Assembly: GCA_947568835.1 (NCBI GenBank) | Contig: OX387605.1 | Coordinates: 19,038,418-19,102,417 of the forward strand | DNA: 64,000 nt | Reading direction: 5' to 3' | DNA from: Protonemura montana | Taxonomy: Eukaryota > Arthropoda > Insecta > Plecoptera > Nemouridae | Part shown: in pieces, positions 14,588-64,000 of the stretch | How the letters are laid out: every line of letters starts with the position of its first letter | How positions within the stretch are numbered: the first letter of the stretch is position 1 | The notes under the pieces: model-generated | What the model was told of the DNA's origin: nothing | The model's database searches: none | Seen by the model: only the letters and a program-made list of their open reading frames with translations | Program-made: the position numbers and the translations under genes

Positions 14588-14658
14588 TGCATCGGCCGGG
14601 AATCGAACCCGGGCCGCCCGCGTGGCAGGCGAGCATTCTACCACTGAACCACCGATGC
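14588..14658 (-). tRNA. tRNA-Gly(GCC)
   Basis: A 71-base cloverleaf: acceptor GCATCGG/CCGATGC with discriminator A, D-arm GTTC...GAAT region, anticodon loop CTGCCAC with anticodon GCC, and TTCGATT T-loop on a GCCGGG/CCCGGC-type stem. A TTTT run follows the 3' end as Pol III terminator. It is identical to the other four tRNA-Gly copies in the window. Confidence 0.97.
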
Positions 14659-14800
14659 TGATGACCACCATGGTGAAAGGAAGATAATCAATGATGTACC
14701 AAAGAGGAGCACTTACCTGCAAAGTAGCAAACGCGTTTGAAGCTACTTTCTAGTAAAGCACAGATCTTCCTGAATCTTAAAATTTACCGCCTTCGATACA

Positions 14801-14871
14801 GCATCGGTGGTTCAGTGGTAGAATGCTCGCCTGCCACGCGGGCGGCCCGGGTTCGATTCCCGGCCGATGCA
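14801..14871 (+). tRNA. tRNA-Gly(GCC)
   Basis: Same 71-base sequence as the copy at 14588-14658 but on the opposite strand. The two are divergent, with 142 bases between their 5' ends. ATATTTTG downstream supplies a minimal TTTT terminator. Confidence 0.97.
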
Positions 14872-14999
14872 TATTTTGCGAAAAACTATCAATTAAAATG
14901 TTTGTAGAAGATTTTTGTGATTAGATATTGTCACACAGTCATCGTTTTGGAGTGATTTACGCAGGCAAGTTGTCCAAAGTTAAGTTTTCATTTCAGAGG

Positions 15000-17590
15000 C
15001 AACTTTTGCCTCTTCTGATATTTGATTATCTTGGTCCTTAGTAGACCTTAGTAGACACTACAGTCCTTAGTGGAACTAGCGCTCACGACTCTTATACCTC
15101 TTGCATTGAAAGACACGTGGTTTTAAAACGGTAATTGAAACAAGAATTCTCACACTTGTTTACTCTCTTTTTACATATTACGCAATACAAGATGAGTATA
15201 ATCAACTATGATCAGTCATTACAAAGAAATCATTCATCTTGTCCAAATGTTGGCTAAAGTGTTTCTAGAGTTCATCACCCTGCAAGTGTTGTTATACCTC
15301 CTCAGCCTTGCCTACTGACCTACATCTTCAGCCTTCCTAAACGTTCAAGGACTTTCTTCCATCTTTAAAGCACCTTTTCTTTACAAGTATGTTGATCAAT
15401 AGAGTAACCTTGAGGGAACCCCGGAAATGTTTACCACTTTACGATCATTCTTACAGTCAGGTGTAGAATCTTATACTTGTCGGTAGCAGCTGCGAAGATC
15501 TCCCCCTAACCACTTCCTTATGTGCACTTGGGGCAAACACACTATGTGTTCGTAAAACTTGCTGGTCTATCATCAAGACGGAGGGGAGAGATAGCGTAAG
15601 AAGTGCACTGATGTGGGCATGAATGAACCGTGACGTAAAGACATTCATGATCGATACGTCATCGTCTTTTGTGTACCAAAAGTTGTAAGCAAGGTGCTTC
15701 TTTCTTACGACGACGACTGAAGATTTCGCCAAATTTGTGTCAAATTCAGTACCGTTTAATAAGAAAACCAATAGTTTTCTGGTAAGTCATTTTAAAACGA
15801 TTTAAATTGTTTTGGATAGCGGTTTTTTCTCTGAAATGTCATTCTTTCAATTGTTCAGAGATCTGATTTCGAAGCAATTTGCATACCAGATAAATTCGTA
15901 CATCGAATCACAAGTATCTCATATTATGAATTATAGAATCTTCACCCCACTAACAAATAACAATAAAGAAAAATCTAGTTCGAACTTAAGCTTTATATAG
16001 CAAACTCATATTTTTTTAACAATGAATTTGCTTTCTCAAACAGCCATAATCTTCGATAGCAGAGATTACATATGGCGACAATCCCCCCAAAATCCACTCG
16101 CCACGCTTTTCCTATCGCATGCACATTATCATTATTCTGCACACTATACATAATGCCAGCCATCGCACACATACGAGCACACATATCATACGTATGCATG
16201 CGTCGGCGTCCCCTAATGGCAGCTGCACTCTAGCACACCTGGCCATGCAAGGGTTAGTATGTTGTGTGTGTATGTGTGTGGAGTTTTTGGGTGGTACCAC
16301 CTGGTAGACCTGGTGGGGCAGGGGGTACTTGCATCTGCAGGGTCGCGTGCGGGTCTTTGGGGAGGACGGATGATTGGGTATAGGGGGACAGCTAGCGTCA
16401 CCTCACCCCAAAGCCTTGATGTTGGACGATCTGGCTTCAATACATCAAATGTGTGATAGAGCGTTGCTAGGCAAGGTATATGAGAAATGCGATGGGATGG
16501 TTTTTAATGAATAGGTACTATAAGTTTAGCTGTGCTATTAGCTCAATATATAGGTAATTTTTTTTTTTTTTAGAGTACCGGTTCGTTAACGAATTTAAAA
16601 AGGGTATATGAATGTTTGAAATCACGAAAACGCAGAGAATACAATCAATCTTGATTTGTTAATCAGCGCTTATCGATGACCAATTGTGTAATCATTCATT
16701 CTAGAAACCACATTTTATTTTGAAACGATAAAGAGATGGTCTTGAAAAGATAATGCTTATCAGCTATGAATGTCTTACTAATAGCACAGATCTGCCACCA
16801 CATTTTCTGAATCAGAATTCAGAGTCAATCTTCCTTTTCATCTTTATGCAGTAAACACGTGACAAGCCCAAACGACATGTCTTTCAAATTCAGTGCCCCC
16901 TCTCGTTATGGTCGCATATCACATGATCATTTTACCATCCATTCCTTTCTTACCGTTCTTCTTTATTATGGGGGTGAAGAATTCTAGGAGAATGGTATAT
17001 TATAAAGGATCAGGTGGATTACCTTACATTTCAGAGGCGGAATCTTCTAGAAAATTTTTACACAATAGACATATTAGATCCCCTCTGAATCGAACGTACG
17101 ACTTCCAGTACCAATTATCTGTAAAGAAAGGGAAAACGCAGTTCGTTTTCGCATTGTGTGATCATTATGAGAAATATCTTCAGAATTCATTCGGGTAGAC
17201 TAGGCCAAACCACGAGTAGAAATATGCTAGTAAAAATGAGGTAAATGTTTGGATAAAAGAAAGTCTGGTCAGGTGGCAGAATCAGTTTTTAGTTATTTTC
17301 ACTTCATTCTGTAATAGCCAACTCGGTAGAGCACGAGAATGTCATTTTTAAAACTTGCAGAAGCAGTTCCGGACCCAGTAAGATCAAAATTCAAACGGGA
17401 GCCAACAAGAAATAAAATTAAAATATAGCTTCAAATCTCTATTTTCACTAAATATTATTGTCACTAAATAACTACTATCACTTATCGGCTACTGGGCTAT
17501 AAAGACAGAATCAAACACCTTCAAAACCAGTAACATTATTTTCACAATGAAGCCACGAAGGAGGCACGGGTTACCCCAAAAAAACTCAAA
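15000..17590. other. No gene recognised
   Basis: Noncoding sequence. A tRNA-like half (AGCCAACTCGGTAGAGCACG, near 17317) suggests a truncated SINE or tRNA relic. The 101-codon frame at 16893-17198 and the frames around 16112-16456 have no features that support them as genes. Confidence 0.45.
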
Positions 17591-17593
17591 AGA

Positions 17594-17664
17594 TGCATCG
17601 GCCGGGAATCGAACCCGGGCCGCCCGCGTGGCAGGCGAGCATTCTACCACTGAACCACCGATGC
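17594..17664 (-). tRNA. tRNA-Gly(GCC)
   Basis: Identical to the other tRNA-Gly copies: anticodon GCC and intact D and T arms. On the minus strand a TCTTTTGAGTTTTTTT terminator region follows. With the gene at 17820 it forms a second divergent pair. Confidence 0.97.
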
Positions 17665-17819
17665 TGATATTATTCACCAATTGATAGCTACTTCAAATTG
17701 GCTGACTTTGCGCAGGTATATTGTCAGGTAATCAGAACTTCGCGGCGTGTGCATTCACTGTGACGAGCTGAAACCTAAACCTTTCAGAAACAAATAAACA
17801 CTTCAGTTCTTTCGCATCA

Positions 17820-17890
17820 GCATCGGTGGTTCAGTGGTAGAATGCTCGCCTGCCACGCGGGCGGCCCGGGTTCGATTCCCGGCCGATGCA
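17820..17890 (+). tRNA. tRNA-Gly(GCC)
   Basis: Identical 71-base gene followed by TCTTTTGCC. The spacer to its divergent partner is 155 bases and differs from the spacer of the first pair, while the immediate 3' flank CATCTTTTG is the same on the outer side of both pairs. Confidence 0.97.
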
Positions 17891-25656: not shown

Positions 25657-25729
25657 GGGGGCGTAGCTCAGATGGTAGAGCACTTGCTTAGCATGCAAGG
25701 GGTACCAGGATCGATACCTGGCGCCTCCA
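25657..25729 (+). tRNA. tRNA-Ala(AGC)
   Basis: A 73-base cloverleaf: acceptor GGGGGCG/CGCCTCC with one G-T pair and discriminator A, TAGCTCAGATGGTAGAGC D-arm, anticodon loop TTAGCAT (AGC), T-arm CCAGGATCGATACCTGG. The T-loop ATCGATA departs slightly from TTCGAAT but is common in animal tRNA-Ala. No strong T run follows within 20 bases. Confidence 0.93.
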
Positions 25730-37349: not shown

Positions 37350-40010
37350 CACTCTTGCAAATCGATGGTTTTTTGTGATTACAGAATGGACTCGTAATGG
37401 ACTCGCGATCTACCTTGACTTGTATCAGTTTTTAAAGAGACTTTTTATTAAATTAGAAAATTAAATTGTTGTTTTTATTTGAAAACTAATCAGCAAACTT
37501 AAAAACGTAAGGTGAAAAAGAACACACTTAGCTTAGGTTATGTCTACTTAGAAAAATGTAAATTACCAACCAACCTGCTATATTTGGCTACTTACCTGCC
37601 TACCGAAGCAGCACTTAATCGCCATGTGGCATGCTGTCTACACAGCGTGAAAATTCGGGTGTGGATGGGGATAGCAGGACATTATCAAAAATGCGGGCAC
37701 ATGTGCCATAGGTTCATGGTTGATATTTAATGAATGGACAACATGTATATTTTGTGCAGCATTGCGGAACCTCTATACGATTTAGTAAACCTGTCTTTAG
37801 GTAATCATTACCACCTGTACTTTTGATATGATTGGGGTGCTATCGGGTGTTTTAGAGATGTTTGGAAATCTCTTGGCAACTTTAAACTATTTGTCAGAGT
37901 GTGCTGAAAGTGATACTTTCACTATGTGATTTTTTTTTTCTAGAATATGCTGCAGATTCAATTCTTTTCTTTAAAATGTTGTGTTTTAAATGCATGGTCC
38001 AATTTGATGAAATGTGGAATGAGTGGAATGGAATAAATGAAATTAAGTTCTTAGTTCTGCTTTGACCATACCATACCCCGACGCGCTACGAAAGTTATTT
38101 TTAAAGTGTTAGCATTATAAATCCACTGTCATTTTGAAGTAAATGAATTGTTAAAAAAAAATATTCAGTTTTGTCTTCAAATTAAGAAAAAAAAAACTTC
38201 CATATGATCTATTTTATTTTACGAACTCGACCCGTTCGTGGGTGATATTAAGCCGCCTTAATCCACATCATTGTTTACCTTTCGTCTGATCCACGAGATG
38301 CATAATTGCTCTGTGTAAAGTCTAGCCATCGGTTATTAATCATGAAAACTTTTGTAATAACTATGTTTTATCCGGTTATAATTATGTTGGAACAGTATAA
38401 TCTCAAAGTGAACACTTATGCCAATACGCACCTGATCAGAGCCTATACCCTTGTAATATGATGCAGCGCATACTGCTTATTTTTGATCAAGTACTAATTA
38501 AGATATAAATCAAATGTCCTGCCCACGTGGCTATCTCTGTACATCGATGCAGTCAGAAGTTAAAAGATAAAAGATAATTTACATCGGCGATCATTATCAG
38601 GATCATCGCGTCGTAGGGCTATTATCAACTCAACGTCATGGATATTTCATATGTTCCAAGTCCACTTGAGGTAGATAAACTGTACTACGGGTGACTCAAA
38701 AATGTATAACCATGCCAAAATATGTCAAATATACAGAGTCCATTCAAATGATTATTTTCAGGTTGCTAAAACTGCAATTTCCTTGGTTTAGTAACTTAAT
38801 TCTGGTTCTCATTCCTAGTCGTCTTCAGCCCCAACCCCAACTAACTACCAACATTCCAGATCAGATTGAATGACCCAAAAATATTTGCTTTTGTAATCGA
38901 GTGTGCACATGGTTGGATGCCAGAGATTGCTCACTTTTCGCTTCCGATGGCTCAAGTAATCAATTCAATTGCGGGAATGTCGATTGTTCGGTGGATAGGA
39001 GGACACTTTATATAGAATGAAGAGATTAATGGAATTAATGGAGACGCTGTGGTGTGGTCTTCGGTATTGGGGTGAACTATTTACTCATTCTCGAAGCAGA
39101 AATCTTTCGGTGTTACAACGTGAAAACTCTGCTCAGACAATTTAGTATAAAAATTGCATCCCTAAAACAAATTGTTTCTTAAGACTAAATAATTGACTAC
39201 ATGTTTTCGAACACAGCAGGTTAATAACTGCATAAATATTTCCCCTAGAATAGACTTCAATATCGTTCAATTTGTAGGTGCACAATAGAATAGGGAACCC
39301 TGTTGCAGTGGCCACACAATACAAGGTAAGGGGGTCGTCTTATCACTTCCTTGCAGTGCAATGGTGTATATGTAAGAAAAGGGAGAGCAGACTGTCTGGG
39401 TCACGGCAGGGGCGACGTCGCCGAGAAGGGAGGCTTTGATCAAGGGGCTCGGGTGAACACGTCTATCTGCCCCGGTCGAGATGACAAACCAATTCCGGAA
39501 ATTGACTGTGACCCCCCACCCCCTTTGTGTAACCCACTGCAGCACCCTTCGAAGCATTAACACAACAAGTGAAAAGCGAGACTCGACTACCAGTTAAGAT
39601 CTTCTTTGTTTCTCGTCGTTAGCCCGTAGCATGTCGTTGATAAATCAAATTTCGATCATAATCTATAATGCGTGGATCATCAGATCATCAGAACATGAAT
39701 TCGTTATATTATTGGCAACAAAAAAAACGCACTAAAGCCACCCTAATTGGTTGCCTGGTCTGGTGGTCTATTTGAGCTCCCCGATATTTCATTGTTCGGT
39801 TATCAATCGATAATGTCGGTACAGCTTCTCTGAAAATAAAAAACAGCAAAACTGACCGTTATGAGATGTAATTGCTTTTTTTTCGGTGTAGTAGGCGACA
39901 ATAAAAAACGTCCGTTATATTTGCTATATAACAATTGTGAATTAACGCGCTTTCTAACTCGCGGGATGAAATCAGCAGCACGCGGGCTAGATCTGCATCC
40001 CGTGCACTTC
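37350..40010. other. No gene recognised
   Basis: About 2.7 kb upstream of nerfin-1 without a supported gene. It may contain regulatory DNA for nerfin-1, but I see no specific element. Confidence 0.4.
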
Positions 40011-40013
40011 ATC

Positions 40014-40030
40014 GGGGGGGGGGGGGGGGG
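40014..40030. repeat. Poly(G) tract, 17 bases
   Basis: Uninterrupted run of 17 G, about 155 bases upstream of the candidate nerfin-1 TATA box. Confidence 0.95.
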
Positions 40031-40170
40031 TTGATTTCCAACCAATGAGCTTGTCTCGCGCGCTTTGCCCCGTCGAATAGCGATGCAGCGTGCTCGGGGA
40101 AGCTTAAAATTCGACCATGCGCTCGGCTATTTGGGGGGCGGCGCTTCCCTCACCATTGGCAGCGTCAACG

Positions 40171-40205
40171 TTATAAAACGCCTCGCACCCTGCGCCACCC
40201 TAGCC
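40171..40205 (+). promoter_or_regulatory. Candidate promoter of nerfin-1
   Basis: TTATAAAACG at 40171-40180 is a good TATA box in locally GC-rich sequence. Initiation 25-32 bases downstream would fall near 40200 and give a 5'UTR of about 220 bases with no long upstream frame. No clear initiator is visible. Confidence 0.45.
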
Positions 40206-40420
40206 ACTCTAAGCGCACGCCAAGCCCGAGGAGTGCATTGCCTTAGCACCCGAGCCGACAGATGTAGCCACGGGAGCATGTAGGCACCTTACCAGGGGAC
40301 ACCCGTACTGTAGACAGGCAGACGGTGGTTGGGAGTGGTGTAGAGTGGACGTGTTGTTAGCGCGCACGGCTGGCCGAGTGACAGTACATCTCACGACAGT
40401 GTGGCTTACGTGACGACATC

Positions 40421-41662
40421 ATGCCTCGTGGATTTCTAGTGAAACGGCAATACATGCCGGTTCACGGTCATCATCATCAAGAAAATCTACGCTATCAAGA
40501 CGAAGATGAAGAAAATATTCAACGTCAGGCGTTTGGTATGTTCCATCCTTCATTACACCACTACGAGACGTCATTTTCAAATTCGCTCTACTCGTCACAT
40601 CAAAATCCACTCCACAGTCTTGTGGAAAGGCTTGGCTTCGACCCTCACCCTCTGTACCTGTATTCTGAACCACTATCACTTTCAACGCCTCCACCTTTAG
40701 ACTTATCAATCAAAGCCTCTGTGCCAATCACCCCACCTGCTACACCATCCCCGTCGTCACCCGTCAGAAAACGAGCATACTCCGAACCGGAACACAACAT
40801 AAACGTAACTCCACGAACACCAATCACGAAATACGACACCAGCGTCAAAAAGCTCGGCGCGAAATCGCCGCTGAAGAAAACCAAAGCAGTCCGCCGGCTC
40901 AACTTCGACGAGGACAAGTCTTCGCCAGTGTCCGGCACGATAATCAGGGAGCTACGCGACGACGAGCCTCCCCTTGTCGTTCGGAAGGGTGACATCGACC
41001 CCGCGTTCAACGTGGTCGAAGTTACCGACGAGGCCAAGGCAGAACTGGCGAAGATCGAGAACCGAATCGGCGACTACATTTGCCGGCTGTGCAAAGAGAT
41101 GTACGAGGACGCGTTCACGCTCGCCCAGCACCGGTGTTCCCGCATCGTGCACGTGGAGTACAGGTGTCCAGAATGTGACAAAGTGTTCAACTGTCCTGCC
41201 AATCTCGCATCACATCGGCGATGGCACAAACCCAGGGTGCCTCCGACAGGTGACAACGTCGACCACCACCAACCAGTCGACCTCGTACGCAAACTCTTTG
41301 TCAGCTCGAACGACGGCGACGCTGACGGCGATAGTAACAGCGCATCGGAAGACTTACAAACGACACTCTTCCCGTGTCCTGTTTGCCAGAAGCAGTTTCG
41401 ACGGCAAGCATACCTGAGAAAACATCTAACGATACATCAAGGCGCTTCGGAAGATCTACCATCACAATACCAGCAGATGTCTCCTCGGTATCTATCACCA
41501 CCGACGTTGTTGCCGTTGGCGGTGTCGCCGGCGTCGTCGTCGTCGTCGCTGATGGCGTCGCCAACGCTGTCGCTGTCATCGGAGCGGCTGCCGCTGCACC
41601 ATCAGCAGCTTCAACACCACCTTAGTGTGCATCAGCACCAGCAGCAAGTGCCGGCCAACTGA
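40421..41662 (+). CDS. nerfin-1: Nerfin-1/INSM-family zinc-finger transcription factor
   Basis: A single-exon gene of 413 residues. It opens with the SNAG repressor motif MPRGFLVKR, which is the signature of INSM/Nerfin proteins and argues for the ATG at 40421. PLDLS at residues 92-96 is a canonical CtBP-binding motif. The zinc fingers are: ZF1 at about 219-247 (C221, C224, H237, C239, the atypical INSM finger with AQHRCSRIVHVEY), ZF2 at about 248-270 (ECDKVFNCPANLASHRRWHK) and ZF3 at about 317-339 (C319, C322, H335, H339; QFRRQAYLRKH). A Ser/Gln/His-rich tail follows. In Drosophila, Nerfin-1 is a nuclear factor of newborn neurons needed for axon guidance and for keeping neurons differentiated, and its mRNA is heavily regulated by microRNAs. 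The region downstream here is an extreme example of that. The stop is TGA followed by C, with a coding-like extension beyond it. Confidence 0.95.
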   Translation: MPRGFLVKRQYMPVHGHHHQENLRYQDEDEENIQRQAFGMFHPSLHHYETSFSNSLYSSHQNPLHSLVERLGFDPHPLYLYSEPLSLSTPPPLDLSIKASVPITPPATPSPSSPVRKRAYSEPEHNINVTPRTPITKYDTSVKKLGAKSPLKKTKAVRRLNFDEDKSSPVSGTIIRELRDDEPPLVVRKGDIDPAFNVVEVTDEAKAELAKIENRIGDYICRLCKEMYEDAFTLAQHRCSRIVHVEYRCPECDKVFNCPANLASHRRWHKPRVPPTGDNVDHHQPVDLVRKLFVSSNDGDADGDSNSASEDLQTTLFPCPVCQKQFRRQAYLRKHLTIHQGASEDLPSQYQQMSPRYLSPPTLLPLAVSPASSSSSLMASPTLSLSSERLPLHHQQLQHHLSVHQHQQQVPAN

Positions 41663-41770
41663 CACCAGTTGAGGTTGGCGCCGTTCCTCTGGCCGCCGAA
41701 TCATCCGCCTCCTCAGAGGCCGGTGCCGCTACCCCCGCCACCACCCTTCTGGAGGCTCAATCTTATCTAG
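41663..41770 (+). other. In-frame, coding-like extension past the nerfin-1 stop
   Basis: After the TGA at 41660-41662 the same frame stays open for 35 codons up to a TAG at 41768-41770. It encodes a proline-rich tail with LRLAPFLWPPN and VPLPPPPPFWRL, much less like 3'UTR than like protein. TGA-C is the leakiest stop context, and stop-codon readthrough is common in arthropod regulatory genes. A sequencing error is the alternative. A donor-like TG|GTAAGT lies right after the TAG, at 41773. Confidence 0.5.
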
Positions 41771-41884
41771 TGGTAAGTGCAGACAGCAATCAAAATGAAT
41801 AATACTTAGAAGAGTTGGCTACAGATTATATATCATACGTATGGGTGACTTCTGAATGTGAAGGAATTATTGTATCGGAACCAA

Positions 41885-42439
41885 TCTAGTCATTGTGATC
41901 CTAATCTAGTCTTACGGTCTAGTCAGATTCGTATATGTGGTTTGTTAATTTAGGGTAAGATTTCTCGTGAAATGTAAATCTCTTGAAATTATTCAGTAAA
42001 ATGTGTCATTTAGGCTGAAATATAAGCGAGGACATGGCATGTTATCGTGAAATATAGCGCTACAAAGAATAAAATTAGTCATACAAATCTAGTCATTATG
42101 CTTATATTTTTAATCTAGTCAAAAAGAGAATGATATTCTAGTCAAAAACGGAATTTATTTCTAGTCAGAATATTGATTCGATCTAGTCATCTAGTCATCT
42201 TGATTCGAGTCTCTTCACTAAGTCGTTCTAAAGAAATTTTATTTCAAGTCACATCTTTTTGTGTCAAACGACGTCAAATTCTAGTCAACGTAAACATCTA
42301 GTCAATATCAACACGATCTAGTCATCTCAATATCATAGTCATTTCAAATCTAGTCATTTCGAATCTAGTCATTTAAACATTTAGTCACTTCAAAATCTAG
42401 TCCATTGAAAAAAAAATAGTCAGAAAAGGTATCTAGTCA
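41885..42439 (+). promoter_or_regulatory. Array of 16 miR-279-family target sites in the nerfin-1 3'UTR
   Basis: The octamer TCTAGTCA occurs at 41885, 41918, 42088, 42114, 42137, 42160, 42182, 42190, 42280, 42297, 42317, 42349, 42364 and 42432. TCTAGTCT at 41905 and TCTAGTCC at 42396 are 7-mer matches. From established knowledge, the miR-279/286/996 family begins UGACUAGA, so TCTAGTCA is its full 8-mer seed site. Spacing ranges from 8 bases (42182 and 42190) to 163 and the flanks differ, so this is not a simple tandem repeat. One-base-off variants (TTAGTCA, ATAGTCA) lie between the sites. AATAAA at about 42519 could end the transcript after the array. Confidence 0.9.
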
Positions 42440-42444
42440 ACTTT

Positions 42445-45400
42445 AATTTTAAGTTAAGAGGAAACTGTTTTTTTAATTGATCTCACTATACGATCGTAGC
42501 ATGTTGTATACGTTCGCAATAAACTTTTGTGCAATTTCTTATCCTATTATATGCGTAAATTATCGTTTTTTATGGTTTTATTGATTTTTGCGTATAATAT
42601 TGAAAATATTCCGTGGATTATCTGTTGCCATTTGTGGATGCAGCTTCTTGATCTCACTTTTAGACGAATACCAACTATTAGGTTAACGCGTTAATTTATA
42701 AAGCTTGTACTTATATACCTGCTTGGGATCGATGCCAGTTTTCTTCTGTACTCCTTGAAATTAGATCAAGTAATTCACTCTGCTGGAATTATCTCAGTTA
42801 TCTTGCAAGGAAACAATTAAGATTACGTAAAATAAAAACTAATTATAAGGGATGTGTGTAGTCATGTATTTAAAATTATTGTATAATGTATAGTTATTGT
42901 AAGTACTATATTAAAATGTAATACTTATATTTCTGGTCGAAACAGGGTAAACAAAGACTTGATGCAGTTTTTAATAACAAAATTATTATGTAGTTTGCAA
43001 TGCATTCCTTGCGGATTTTCACATCTCTTGAGTGGCCTAGCACAAGAAAATTGAAATTTTAAGAACATTTCAATTGGTCCTTTTAAAACCGACTTATCAT
43101 AATTTGATAAAAATAGCTGGCCGTGCAAACGGCCAAGTTGATGATAGATATCCATTCCATTTCAAACAGTTTTGTAGATATGTCATTTATCCGTGACTAC
43201 CTAAACAACCTTTCAGCTATTGAGAAATTTCTCAGAATTGAGGATTCCGTCATAGAAATTATTTATACGCTCGTGCAGGTATTTTTACAAAGAATACTTC
43301 CGATTTAAACCATGTTTTGACATCTTCCTTTTTTTACCATTTGCGTTGTCTATTCTTTGTCAATGTATCCTGGAATCGTTTTGCTCATATCTGTTGATTT
43401 GAGTAACTAGACCAGGCTACTTTGACATGCGAGTTTCTACTTAAAATACCAAAAAAAATAGAGTAATTCGAAAACATGTACAAGTATGCAGGCGCCTCAC
43501 GCTATATTTCAAACACGCCACCTTTTGAACCGGTCGCCGACTGCGCTGGCCTCTTGTAGCCAATGTGAGAACTAAACCACTTTGCACCAGAAATTTAATT
43601 TTAATTTTAATATGTCATCAAACGATAATAGTATTACTATTTATAATGAATAGAATGTAAATTTTCACTGCTTCTACTAAACAAAAACAGTGTTATTGAT
43701 TCTTGTCAGTCTAAGCATACAAATATATTTAACTGTGTAATCTATATTTTATGAGGTGTAAAACCTTGAGAATTTGCACAAATACTGCATTTTCATCAAA
43801 GATATTACTTTCATATAATTACCCAATGTGTCTTTCAAATTGTGTTGTGGTCCCTATCTATTTGAGCACTTTATTAATAATTGCTTTAATTGGGAGCCAA
43901 CTCAAAGTCAGATCGAGTGAGATCTAGTCAATCTGTAGTGAGCCACAAGCAAAATCGATGAGTACTCCAAAGACATCTGCGCCTGACTAACTATCGGCAA
44001 AGTGTTGATGGCCAGTCTCTTCTAGTCTGATCTCTGCTTGTGGAATTAGAAACTTAGCCTAGAAAAGGAATGAATGAGCATTAAATTATATTTAAGATAT
44101 TAAGAACGAGTGAATCCAAATGGCATTATTATTTATATAATTATAATATATTAGCGTATTTTAATTTCTATAATGTATTTTGCATCAAAGGAATGAAAAC
44201 CAAATTAAATATATATGTTTTAGAGGAATTGTAAACAAAGATAAATATTGTAATTTCTACTTGTAAGTTGATGTATGCTCTCTCCTGAAGGTTGTTTGTA
44301 TTTCTTCTAAAATAATAGTATGGGTGTTACACACCTATTGGTCAAGCCAGGAATATCCATCGCTAATTCCCTTTTTTTGTAAATCAAGTTTGTTAACTTT
44401 AAGAACCTACCTTTAATGATTGTTTAAAACATGTACAATTTGTAACATAGTAACTTTTAACTTATGTAATTATTAATTCCGATAGATGAGGCAGAATAAT
44501 TTACATATACAACTCACTCCACTAGGGTCAATAAAATGTGGACATCAGTGCATACCTGTAAGTTCACCATATTTAATTACACAATGTATCATATACTTGA
44601 CATCAAATACAACTTATGGTGAAAAGAAAATTCAATCTTTCGTTTTGTAAATAAAAAGTCGTTAGCCAGTGATTTTGAAGTGTGTGTAGAGATGAAATAG
44701 TTGTACAACAGAAATATTATGCTAATGGAAAATGGAAAATATATGATTTCATCTGTGTGAACATAAAGAATTAAATAAATTGTTCTTCCAAAAAACAACA
44801 GTTTTTTTTATGTGGATCAAGACCTTCCTGCCTCTTTTTTTTTCAACACCAGGCATTTCAAATGATTTTTATCTCAGCATATACAGTCAAATCTGGTAAG
44901 TTGTGGTTCCTCACTCTTTCTTTCTTCACCGAAATCAAAATCCAGCCTCTTGGCACTTTATTTGCATTACAGTCAAGTATAACTTATCTACTGAAGTCCA
45001 AATGGTATTTCACGAAAATAGTAATTTCCCTTTCTGACGTAATATTAATGTGGCTGTGAAGAAGTTCTCTAATTTCACTCAAAACCCAAATTAAGTTGCT
45101 AAGGTCAATAACATTCTGTACGGCCATTTTCCTTAATGATATAGATTGACAAGTAATTAGGCAATTAATAAATATATTCATTACTTAAATATTCAACTAG
45201 CAATTTCAACTTGAAAGTCAGTAGTTGCTACATATCACAATTCAAAATTTAACAAATTCACAAGTATCAAACTGCAGAACTGACTGTAAATAATGATTAT
45301 ATAACGTACATTTGTATAGCTGTATAAAACATTACCCAATATTAACATTTTTACTTTAGCTAGATCATTAATTGAATGAAGTAGTTCATGCTTCCATTAA
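42445..45400. other. Possible distal 3'UTR, otherwise no gene
   Basis: AT-rich noncoding sequence between nerfin-1 and SON, which converge. A further TCTAGTCA at 43923 and TCTAGTCT at 44021 suggest a longer 3'UTR isoform reaching at least 44.1 kb; AATAAA at 44530 would suit it. No open frame is convincing. Confidence 0.45.
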
Positions 45401-45406
45401 ATTGCT

Positions 45407-47971
45407 TCAATCTATGGGGACACCAAGAGCTCTCAAGCAAACGGTTGCAGCTTCAGCTTTTGCTAATTTTTTATTAGGACTGCTAGTAGCTGGCTCGTAG
45501 TTCACTCCACTCACTTGCACTTTGAAAATAAAATTTTTCATATGATCCGGACCACTTTCACTAGAAATTTCAAAATACGGAGGCTTCCACCTTCTACGCG
45601 CACAAAACTCAATCAACAGGGAAATAGGATGTTTCTCTGACAACTTTTTGTTGTTTGTTTTTATTCTACAACTAGGCCTCAGATTCAGATGATGTTTCAA
45701 GTCCTCCTCAGTCATGAGCCCCTTTTTGTCCATTTTAATTTCTAAACTGAGTGGCTCCAGCGACCCTGCTTTGTTCTTGCCCAGACCTTCTCCTGGCCGC
45801 CAACCCATCTTCTGCAACAACGACATGCCCATCCCGCCAGTGAGCGGAGCAGCCGTCACAAACTGATCTTTTCGAACGTATGCAGGAGCGCCCGCAGAGA
45901 GCTGCGCCACTGTCAGCATGCGCACGTCTGTATTGCCGGTGAACTGCCCAGGCAGCTGCTTCGACTCGGCCCAAGTCTTCATCTCCTGGTTGGCGGCATA
46001 CATTGCGGACAAGGCTTCCACGTCGTTTGGGTTTTCCTGCAGCTGGCGCATGGCTCGCAGTCGCTGAGATACAATGTCGCCGATGTCTTGGCTAACGCTC
46101 GGCGGATCAGGGAACACCGGTGGAGGAACCACTGGGGAGGGCAGAGGGAGGTGTTCGGCCACGGGAGGTGCGGTTATGGCGAGAAGTTGCTTGGGAGCGG
46201 ATGATTTTGGTTCGACAGGCACCCATTCGCTTTCTGTCTTTCTGTGTTGGGTACCGCTAGAAACTGGAAACTGGACACGTAGCATCTGATCTGACGCTTT
46301 GTTGAGCAATGCATTTGCTGGCACTGGGACAGAATTTTTGATATTCATAACAATACTCAAGGGGCGTTCTTTAATTTGGAATGGATGGTTGAATGGTCGC
46401 TTTTCTACATCACTCTCACCGCTGTGCTCATCGCCTTCATTGTCGGAGCCACTCATTTTTGACTCTCTTTTTGAAAGTCTCACACAAAAGTCGGTTAGTT
46501 CTGCTACACTTTTCCCCCCTGATTTGATATTTACTAATTTCTCCTGTCCTATTGGTCCTGGCAAGGTACCTTGTTCCAAAAGAAATAAAGCATTTTTCCG
46601 AGCAATAGCCATTAATTTCTTTTTATCGATAGGTGATATTGAACGGTCTCTTTTTCTTTTATCATGGTTATATTTACTTTCACTACGTTTACCATGATCA
46701 TGTCGATCTTCACTTCGTCTACGTTGCGAATGTCCATTATGATGTTTCTCTGAAATCTTCTCCCTGAGTTCTTGTTTACTTTTGCTTTTTTCCTTATTAC
46801 TTAACCTGTCCCTGCTGCAGCTTTTGTGCCCATTCTCACCTTTTCTTCTTGATCTGGAATCTCTGCTCTGACTTCTTGAATCCCGTTTCTTTAAACGATC
46901 ATGGCGACTACGATGATGAGAGTTTTCAGATAGATGGTGTGTACGCTTACTACTTCCACTTTTTGAATCCCTTCGTCGCTTAGTAGGTGTGCTCTTCTGA
47001 GACGTACTTCTTGACCGATGTCGTTTGCAATGAGATTTACTTCCACTTTCTTTTGTTTTGCTTAACGAGATTTGTTTCGATGGAATTGGAGATGATTCAG
47101 CTGACCTGTGGCTGTTGTTATCGGAGTGAGCGCTGTCACTGGAATTTGATATTTCCCCTTCTTCATACATTTCTGCTTTTGCTTTGGCTTGTTCTTCAAC
47201 TTCTTTCAGGGTCGCTTCAAAAACAGAACTGAACTTAAGATTCTTAATAGATATTTTACTTGCAGTCTTACAACTACTATCAATTCTCTTTTTCAAACCT
47301 GACTGTTCACTGTTATCAATGTTAGTTGAAAGAACATTGCTTGCATCAATTGCGCTTTTAATATTTTTATTCACATCACCGTTACTGGTTGAAGAAACAA
47401 TTTCAGGAGTGTTCACGTCTTCTGACTGGCTTGGATTTTTATTACTAGATATTAAAACAAAGTCATTGACTGGTTTAAGAGGAGCTTGATTTTTTAACAG
47501 ATTTTTTTCTTCTTGCTTACTAGGTTTTGAAGGATGATCATCAGAACTTTTCGGCTTTATGGCTGCTTGTTTACTTCGAGATGTTGAAGTCTTGTCACTC
47601 TTAGATCGCTTTTTATGTTTTTTACTTTTATGTTTGTGTTTTTTCTTACTAGACTTTTTATATGAAAGCTCATTTTCCAGCGACTCTCTGGGGCTAATTG
47701 ATCGTAAATGACTACCATCATTTTTAGAATCCTTAATAATTATGTCGGTGAGTAGTGGAGGTGCTGCATTTAAAGAACCAAATAGCTCAGAGATGATTTC
47801 TGATGAAGATTTGTGGGTGATTGATTCAGTTACAGGCACACTTTCTGCAGTGCCTAGTATATTTGAAAGCTTATTCAAAACAATTTTTATGTCTACAATA
47901 GACTCGCTGCTTATATTTGTTCTGTCATTTGCAGTGTTTTCATCTGTGAGATCACTTCTTGTTGCAGCCAT
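45407..47971 (-). CDS. SON: SON-like splicing cofactor with G-patch and dsRBD
   Basis: A single-exon gene of 854 residues. The first ATG in frame is at 47971 (MAATRSDLTDEN); five upstream codons come from a TTG. A lysine/histidine-rich block at about 100-130 (KKHKHKSKKHKKRSKS) and a long RS domain at about 300-450 fit an SR-related nuclear-speckle protein. KKLMAIARKNALFLLEQGTL follows, a conserved SON segment. A G-patch spans about 712-752 (MGMSLLQKMGWRPGEGLGK). A double-stranded RNA-binding domain ends the protein at about 780-851 (HPISLLIEFCARR ... KKLAKAEAATVCLRALG). This order is the SON architecture. SON promotes splicing of weak introns, especially in cell-cycle genes, in vertebrates; a similar role here is inferred. 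It is much shorter than human SON because the human repeat region is missing. It is transcribed head-to-head with the KNL2-like gene. Confidence 0.95.
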   Translation of the reverse strand: MAATRSDLTDENTANDRTNISSESIVDIKIVLNKLSNILGTAESVPVTESITHKSSSEIISELFGSLNAAPPLLTDIIIKDSKNDGSHLRSISPRESLENELSYKKSSKKKHKHKSKKHKKRSKSDKTSTSRSKQAAIKPKSSDDHPSKPSKQEEKNLLKNQAPLKPVNDFVLISSNKNPSQSEDVNTPEIVSSTSNGDVNKNIKSAIDASNVLSTNIDNSEQSGLKKRIDSSCKTASKISIKNLKFSSVFEATLKEVEEQAKAKAEMYEEGEISNSSDSAHSDNNSHRSAESSPIPSKQISLSKTKESGSKSHCKRHRSRSTSQKSTPTKRRRDSKSGSSKRTHHLSENSHHRSRHDRLKKRDSRSQSRDSRSRRKGENGHKSCSRDRLSNKEKSKSKQELREKISEKHHNGHSQRRRSEDRHDHGKRSESKYNHDKRKRDRSISPIDKKKLMAIARKNALFLLEQGTLPGPIGQEKLVNIKSGGKSVAELTDFCVRLSKRESKMSGSDNEGDEHSGESDVEKRPFNHPFQIKERPLSIVMNIKNSVPVPANALLNKASDQMLRVQFPVSSGTQHRKTESEWVPVEPKSSAPKQLLAITAPPVAEHLPLPSPVVPPPVFPDPPSVSQDIGDIVSQRLRAMRQLQENPNDVEALSAMYAANQEMKTWAESKQLPGQFTGNTDVRMLTVAQLSAGAPAYVRKDQFVTAAPLTGGMGMSLLQKMGWRPGEGLGKNKAGSLEPLSLEIKMDKKGLMTEEDLKHHLNLRPSCRIKTNNKKLSEKHPISLLIEFCARRRWKPPYFEISSESGPDHMKNFIFKVQVSGVNYEPATSSPNKKLAKAEAATVCLRALGVPID

Positions 47972-48320
47972 ACCGACCTTAACCAAAAACTATATTTTGA
48001 CCTCCATTACTCGAAACCACCGCCTTCTCCTGTAGCTTTGACATTCCAAGGTTCCGCTGAATCCACAGCCTTTAACGTTTGACAGCGCGGTTAAAATGTG
48101 CGTTTCACACCTCCGCATCACTTCGCATCATTGGCCTAATCACAACGGTCTCCGGCGATTTCCAGTGCGGTATATGAACCGTAGATAGCATTTGAGACGC
48201 ATGGACCGCTCTGCGGCGTGTATGTAGTTATTGTTATTTTATAATGTTACTTTAAAACATGAGTATCCACCGCTTGATATTAATCTTAATTTCTCTGTGG
48301 AATCAAAGTGTTCGAGCGAC
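47972..48320. promoter_or_regulatory. Probable bidirectional promoter, SON / KNL2-like
   Basis: Only 349 bases separate the two start codons, which point away from each other. The interval must hold both 5'UTRs and both promoters. It is richer in GC than its surroundings (about 48050-48230) and has no TATA box on either strand at a sensible place, as expected for a housekeeping pair. Confidence 0.7.
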
Positions 48321-63399: not shown

Positions 63400-64000
63400 T
63401 TACCTTCTTATGCTACCTTCAGCCCCTCCCCAGGCTGTGTAACCAACAACTGCCGTGCAGAAGTTGTTCAGTTTAGCCTCTTTCCGCCTCTGTTGTTGGG
63501 ATTCCCATCCTAAATATACCATCATTTTGGTCGGACTTTGACGTGGACTGTATTTGTGGAGCACATGTCTTTGAACAATTTCAATGGCTTGTGTGAGCTG
63601 TTGAGTGTACGGATCCCATATTATTGCTGCATATTCTAACGTGGGTCTAACTATGCTAGTGTATACTTTTGTCCTTACTTCCCAACTAGTGTTCTTAAGA
63701 TGTATTATCACAAATCTAAGTTTACTGATTCCTTTTCTAATTCTCTTGCTTATGTGATATTTCCCGTTAAAGTTGTTTGAGATATTCACTACCAAGTATT
63801 TACAATTATCTGCATATTTTAGTCCATCCCCATTCAGGAATATTGATGAAAATTTGTATTCTTCTTGTTTGTGAATTTAAAGATGGCTTTTAGTATTGTT
63901 AAGTTTCATTTTGTGTCTCTCCACCCACTTTTCAATCTCTTGTATATTCAGTTGCAAGTAATGATGGTCATTACCGTTTTAGATTTGACTTGTTCGATTT
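63400..64000 (-). mobile_element. Jockey-like LINE reverse-transcriptase fragment
   Basis: On the minus strand a frame from 63795 to 63400 reads SKLRFVIIHLKNTSWEVRTK, TSIVRPTLEYAAIIWDPYT and KMMVYLGWESQQQRRKEAKL, the conserved region just after the reverse-transcriptase core of jockey-clade ORF2 proteins ('VRPxLEYAAxxWDP', 'LGWxSLxxRR'). Upstream, beyond a stop or frameshift near 63870-63885, the matching IEKWVERHKMKLNNTKS and YADNCKYLVVNIS segments are visible. The copy is broken, and it runs off the window at 64000. Confidence 0.85.

Follow-up and report, generated by a model that had tools for sequence, protein, structure and literature searches.

The question raised by this locus is why a short stretch downstream of a gene for a neuronal transcription factor should carry one and the same seed match over and over. 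The locus belongs to a nemourid stonefly, Protonemura montana, and it was analysed within the window, that is, the whole 64-kb stretch of DNA examined here (C3:19038418-19102417, in a genome of 258.5 Mb). The ND2 gene on the mitochondrial contig shares 92-93% identity with those of Protonemura kohnoae and P. meyeri, other Nemouridae coming next. Word search placed 14 copies of the 8-mer TCTAGTCA and two 7-mers between positions 41885 and 42439, all on the plus strand, which amounts to 16 sites in 555 bases, each of them found on recounting exactly where the original prediction had located it. The array is separated by 222 bases from the stop codon of nerfin-1, and 78 bases lie between its last site and an AATAAA hexamer. 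As argued below, it very probably constitutes the core of the nemourid nerfin-1 3'UTR and a very strong predicted target region for microRNAs of the miR-279/286/996 family.

The 8-mers occupy positions 41885-41892 (site 1), 41918-41925 (site 3), 42088-42095 (site 4), 42114-42121 (site 5), 42137-42144 (site 6), 42160-42167 (site 7), 42182-42189 (site 8), 42190-42197 (site 9, which abuts site 8), 42280-42287 (site 10), 42297-42304 (site 11), 42317-42324 (site 12), 42349-42356 (site 13), 42364-42371 (site 14) and 42432-42439 (site 16), whereas the 7-mers, both of the m8 type, are TCTAGTCT at 41905-41911 (site 2; TCTAGTC followed by T) and TCTAGTCC at 42396-42402 (site 15; TCTAGTC followed by C). 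The number of matches to nucleotides 2-8 of the family is far beyond chance: in 500 dinucleotide shuffles of positions 41860-42480 the 8-mer occurred 0.09 times on average and twice at most, and genome-wide it is found 3297 and 2798 times on the two strands of the 258.5 Mb, by our arithmetic one copy in about 85 kb of each strand. On the minus strand of the 64-kb window, TCTAGTCA does not occur at all. When all 8-mers were counted in 555-base stretches along the window, poly-G alone surpassed 14 (16 copies, overlapping). Within the 883 bases assigned to the 3'UTR, the miR-279-family seed accounts for 16 sites, compared with no more than two for any other seed in a list of 51 insect microRNA names, representing 50 distinct seeds.

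The identity of the upstream gene was established from its single open frame (40421-41662, plus strand; stop codon at 41660-41662), which encodes an INSM1-like C2H2 factor of 413 amino acids that starts with MPRGFLVKR and ends in QQVPAN. Its best homolog scored E 8.5e-106, identities ranged from 56 to 68% across the first five matches, a Pfam zf-C2H2 domain was recognised, and no other place in the genome matched at E<=1e-10. Both the SNAG-like N-terminus and the conserved C2H2 core expected of a nerfin-1/INSM1 ortholog are present. When 11 relatives, including 10 named insects, were aligned with it, the final -AN recurred in three, namely a katydid, a cricket and a cockroach (-AAN), and this resemblance of the -VPAN end favours a genuine C-terminus. 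The open frame being complete, the array sits 3' of the stop, and the location downstream of nerfin-1 that had been claimed for it is borne out. A coding continuation past the stop was considered and rejected after 41400-43000 had been read in three frames; a scan of the whole window for C2H2/INSM-like patterns returned only the two fingers of this frame, besides two four-letter chance words.

The 3'UTR in its proximal form would run from 41663 to 42545, its 3' end being deduced from an AATAAA at 42518-42523, which we propose as the proximal poly(A) signal and which is followed by a U/GU-rich stretch at about 42562-42592. Further AATAAA words are found at 44530, 44650 and 44774; if one of these distal words is used, an additional 8-mer at 43923-43930 and a 7-mer-m8 at 44021-44027, both on the plus strand, would form part of a longer 3'UTR. 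Another AATAAA, at 42068, falls in the gap of 170 bases that separates site 3 from site 4; one or two such words are expected by chance given the size and composition of the stretch, and its use would yield a short nerfin-1 mRNA that retains 3 of the 16 sites. An Rfam search of 40000-45500 for other RNA elements gave a lone weak mir-598-like match inside the nerfin-1 coding sequence (25.7 bits, the cut-off being 69), which was taken as chance. As to the surroundings, the neighbour at 45407-47989 on the minus strand, which runs convergently, has G-patch and dsRNA-binding domains (Pfam), and we take it to be SON-like. At 14588-17890, divergent tRNA-Gly(gcc) genes form two pairs some 3 kb from each other, which suggests a local duplication, and more tRNA genes lie at 25657, 35470, 35746 and 58823. 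A 158-residue open frame on the minus strand (63403-63876) has no Pfam match and is presumably a fragment of a non-LTR retrotransposon reverse transcriptase.

A seed match is meaningful if the animal has the corresponding microRNA, and the original prediction had named the lack of one as a finding that would overturn it. The Rfam mir-279 model identified six loci in the genome, each a predicted hairpin with a 3p arm starting TGACTAGA, so that this refutation fails: the genome encodes putative microRNAs beginning UGACUAGA. Two of the hairpins exceed the model's cut-off of 56 bits (66.9 and 63.2), and the other four fall under it (52.8, 51.9, 49.4 and 40 bits), yet fold at -37 to -50 kcal/mol. 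The sequence of one of them, L017, is TGACTAGATCCACACTCATCCA; another, L022, we presume to correspond to miR-286. On C3, two of the six are separated by 9 kb, and the mir-279 and mir-996 genes of flies likewise lie close together (PMC4456407).

How such an array came into being can be read in part from its own structure. Tandem Repeats Finder (TRF) recognised three kinds of units in it: a diverged 23-bp sub-array spanning sites 5-7 (42114-42167, 2.3 copies, 84% matches), an 8-bp tandem stretch (42181-42200) and a diverged 15-16-bp sub-array spanning sites 11-15 (42293-42402, 6.7 copies of 16, 78% matches), the last of which also includes two decayed copies of the word, CATAGTCA at 42334 and TTTAGTCA at 42380, on the plus strand. 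Duplication thus made at least part of the array. The original prediction was right in stating that the sites did not stem from one simple tandem expansion, and it would have been wrong to call them not tandem, in view of the diverged 23-, 8- and 15-16-bp units. When the ten bases on each side of the 16 sites were compared with their consensus, identity reached 47.5%, against 43.5% (sd 1.8) for random positions in the region (P 0.018), a small excess that, as expected, fits shared descent. Pairs of sites with flank similarity at z>2 numbered 19 out of 120; this figure is partly inflated by neighbouring seeds within the flanks and was left out of the argument.

The invariance of the seed among the 16 sites proves nothing by itself, as they were picked by that seed, and selection was therefore approached through a simulation of neutral decay, in which 37 or 27 identical starting units derived from one ancestor accumulated substitutions only. 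At least 16 intact 7-mers survived only while the flanks remained roughly 85-95% identical, and from a divergence of 0.2 upward none of the 300 runs per setting kept that many. Indels, or several independent ancestors, would likewise reduce flank identity in this model; in the latter case a separate seed match would be required for every ancestor, and such matches seldom arise by chance. With seeds intact and flanks near random, as opposed to the 85-95% of the neutral runs, we infer that the seed match has been under selection while the spacers drifted, in agreement with the proposal, already present in the original prediction, that the sites look selected or repeatedly seeded. A comparison of adjacent repeat units pointed the same way, with 49 of 56 seed bases kept versus 44 of 64 spacer bases, although the difference is only modestly significant (P 0.016 overall), with P 0.016 in the 23-bp sub-array and a non-significant P of 0.28 in the 15-16-bp one.

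The same repeats could be read as a decayed minisatellite that contains the 8-mer by accident and has no function. Indeed, besides the 23-bp and 15-16-bp units and the slight likeness of the flanks, which shared descent predicts, the genome holds several other tandem arrays of TCTAGTCA. Triples of the word with gaps of up to 30 bases amount to 221 genome-wide (93 forward and 128 reverse), and a reversed control word is just as common in triples (117 and 121, or 238), so that clustering by itself is not special. All 93 forward triples could be placed (24 on C2, 39 on C3 around 6.73 Mb, 23 on C15 and seven in the window array), and among the reverse ones 65 of 128 were listed (13 on C4, 17 on C11, 33 on C15 and two on C16); in the other 63, the first spacer can only start with TGC, GGC, GCA or GAG, and these starts match those of the C11, C2, C3 and C4 repeats. 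Among the triples thus listed (93/93 forward, 65/128 reverse), those outside the window belong to regular tandem repeats on C2, C3, C4, C11, C15 (two places) and C16 (five sites in a 14/46-bp repeat), whereas the window array, with its strongly drifted spacers and intact seeds, is the only irregular one. Moreover, the chance that one of about eight listed triple loci in 258 Mb would hit the 883-base 3'UTR of nerfin-1 is about 3 in 100,000 by our own arithmetic, a figure to be read with the proviso that the 63 further reverse places may hold more loci. We therefore regard a functionless minisatellite as very unlikely. That the array might lie in an intron of the 3'UTR or past the end of the transcript, and so never meet a microRNA, we deem quite unlikely. 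A donor-like GTAAGT at 41773, upstream of the array and 111 bases past the stop, and acceptor-like sites ending at 42663 and 44852 could be taken in its favour, but GTAAGT occurs 19 times on the plus strand of the window, so that one per 883 bases is unremarkable, and the donor-like word and the two acceptor-like sites were judged indistinguishable from chance. The AATAAA at 42518 lies 3' of the array, and a selected seed match would make sense only in an RNA that meets the microRNA. An argument against the intron from nonsense-mediated decay was dropped as weak for insects.

Two further readings concern what binds the array and to what effect. The sixteen to eighteen sites on one mRNA could act chiefly upon the microRNA, as a sponge or as a trigger of its target-directed degradation, and very dense arrays such as that of ciRS-7 have been reported as sponges (PMC6108476). 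For five of the six microRNAs the mean duplex energy was slightly, and nominally, better than with shuffled upstream bases, the largest gain being that of L022 (-14.4 versus -12.6 kcal/mol), with L018 going the opposite way (-11.5 versus -11.8). However, degradation calls for extended complementarity to the 3' part of the microRNA, and none was found at the 16 sites with any of the six microRNAs: the longest Watson-Crick run to nucleotide 12 onward, searched in the 14 bases upstream of each site, was 5, and contiguous 5' pairing went beyond nucleotide 11 at one site out of 16, site 8 at 42182, which pairs with nucleotides 2-13 of the mir-286-like L022. As for a sponge, the mRNA of one transcription factor would hardly be abundant enough against six microRNA genes. 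The sponge or microRNA-decay function that had been suggested thus finds little support, and we hold it to be highly improbable. Finally, the word might be recognised by a protein instead of a microRNA. Musashi and Hrp48-type RNA-binding proteins recognise a UAG core and act in neural progenitors, and a TAG lies within TCTAGTCA, but what recurs is the whole 7-8-base seed match to miR-279, more than a UAG core needs. In addition, an A faces microRNA nucleotide 1 in 14 of the 16 sites and nucleotide 9 in 12 of them (P 0.0011, post hoc), four of the six family members having a U at nucleotide 9. A protein site of this kind is barely credible as an explanation.

The reading as a strong miR-279 target region can be expressed as a mechanism. 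Where the family microRNA is present, several Argonaute complexes would be loaded onto one nerfin-1 mRNA, and these would recruit GW182 and CCR4-NOT, leading to the clearance of the message; in this way, graded microRNA levels could be converted into near-complete shut-off of a neuronal factor. The spacing between sites is compatible with cooperation, as 11 of the 15 intervals measure 13-35 nt, against a random mean of 6.8 (P 0.012), although tandem periods would give this too; that range is cited as the best for the cooperation of site pairs (PMC2374997, citing earlier work). The sites at 42182 and 42190 abut, which makes it improbable that both are filled at once, and perhaps ten of the 16 could be occupied together. 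The sites are not predicted to be more accessible than the array around them (0.176 versus 0.202, P 0.68). In Drosophila, a nerfin-1 3'UTR reporter had a half-life of 31 min with miR-279, which rose to 182 min on adding an inactive POP2 deadenylase (PMC3510486), and the loss of mir-279/996 led to massive derepression of nerfin-1 in heads (PMC4456407). The decay mechanism of the fly would be a natural inference, by analogy, for stonefly nerfin-1. Furthermore, miR-279/996 was described as strong in glia and less so in neuroblasts, whereas in neurons it could barely be detected (PMC12064045), the pattern to be expected of a microRNA that silences a neuronal factor outside neurons. With respect to origin, the number of sites would have risen, at least in part, through recurrent local duplications, short and of differing length, with selection retaining a seed match of 7-8 bases as the spacers diverged. 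A bolder version, in which the array was grown by selection, with repeated small duplications multiplying one nerfin-1 seed match until some ten Argonautes could sit on each mRNA, in an animal lineage that possesses six genes of the corresponding microRNA family, is offered tentatively, as a possibility that we consider somewhat doubtful. If true, the locus would naturally record how dosage escalated between a microRNA family and the gene that is its main target, and the relationship between miR-279 and nerfin-1 would predate the split of flies and stoneflies, with individual sites having turned over.

Some of the regular arrays found along the way deserve mention in their own right. Those at C3:6733871-6734718 (L031, 15-bp unit) and C2:28881831-28882288 (L009, 18-bp unit) have unit lengths that are multiples of three, so that their frames stay open, and they do so in several frames on both strands (e.g., SSQQK, SSQAYH), without this proving that they code for protein. 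Were they transcribed, they would carry dozens of miR-279 seed matches. On C15, the same 35-bp TCTAGTCA repeat appears in opposite orientation at two places about 77 kb apart (1059129-1060326, minus strand, and 1136790-1137637, plus strand). C4 also contains a chromosomal copy of COX1 (C4:5760925-5762262, L027), which scores equally to the one on the mitochondrial contig C34, and a partial copy at C4:5776811, to be explained either by a recent transfer of mitochondrial DNA into the nucleus or by a join made in the assembly.

Taken as a whole, the original prediction is supported by the identity of nerfin-1, the position 3' of its stop, the six family hairpins in the genome and the seeds that are intact amid drifted flanks. 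Its sponge or decay role finds little support, and its novelty was overstated, since the pairing of miR-279 with nerfin-1 is already known and the stonefly array is an extreme case of it. The link now reaches stoneflies, an order distant from flies and beetles, and it suggests that selection may act on the number of sites and not on any single one, their positions turning over. The locus would also be a natural experiment on the dependence of repression upon site number and on the multiplication of sites by micro-duplication, with seed and spacer appearing to evolve at different rates. No paper on stoneflies and miR-279 was found in the open-licence literature, nor, in those portions of it that deal with nerfin and miR-279 target sites, a comparable site count.

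The closest known system is Drosophila nerfin-1, with the same gene, the same seed family and several sites. As early as 2005 it was the top-scoring single-microRNA target prediction of PicTar; two of its sites are conserved anchors, and all flies carry many further miR-279/286 sites that do not align (PMC1183519). MovingTargets gave it 3 mir-279 and 3 mir-286 sites (PMC1180435). The stonefly, of another order, differs in having 16 sites in 555 bases with visible local duplications; in the fly, reporter decay and mutant derepression have been demonstrated, and for the stonefly gene repression is predicted. The Tribolium ortholog shares predicted miR-279 sites, being among the four conserved targets of nine checked (PMC6961396). 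The hid 3'UTR of the fly is another multi-site target of a single microRNA, bantam, with the second-highest PicTar score (17.3) and five anchor sites (PMC1183519), but it involves another gene and microRNA and, in what that source reports, fewer sites. Higher numbers of sites for a single microRNA on one transcript are found in ciRS-7/CDR1as (more than 70 for miR-7) and circRNA-ZNF91 (24 for miR-23) (PMC6108476), so that, together with the PicTar result for nerfin-1, they show the novelty to have been overstated in the original prediction, whose author knew of no other 3'UTR with this many sites for one family, even if these two are not 3'UTRs. They are circular RNAs described as sponges, unlike the stonefly array, which would be the 3'UTR of an mRNA and, as predicted here, of a repressed target.
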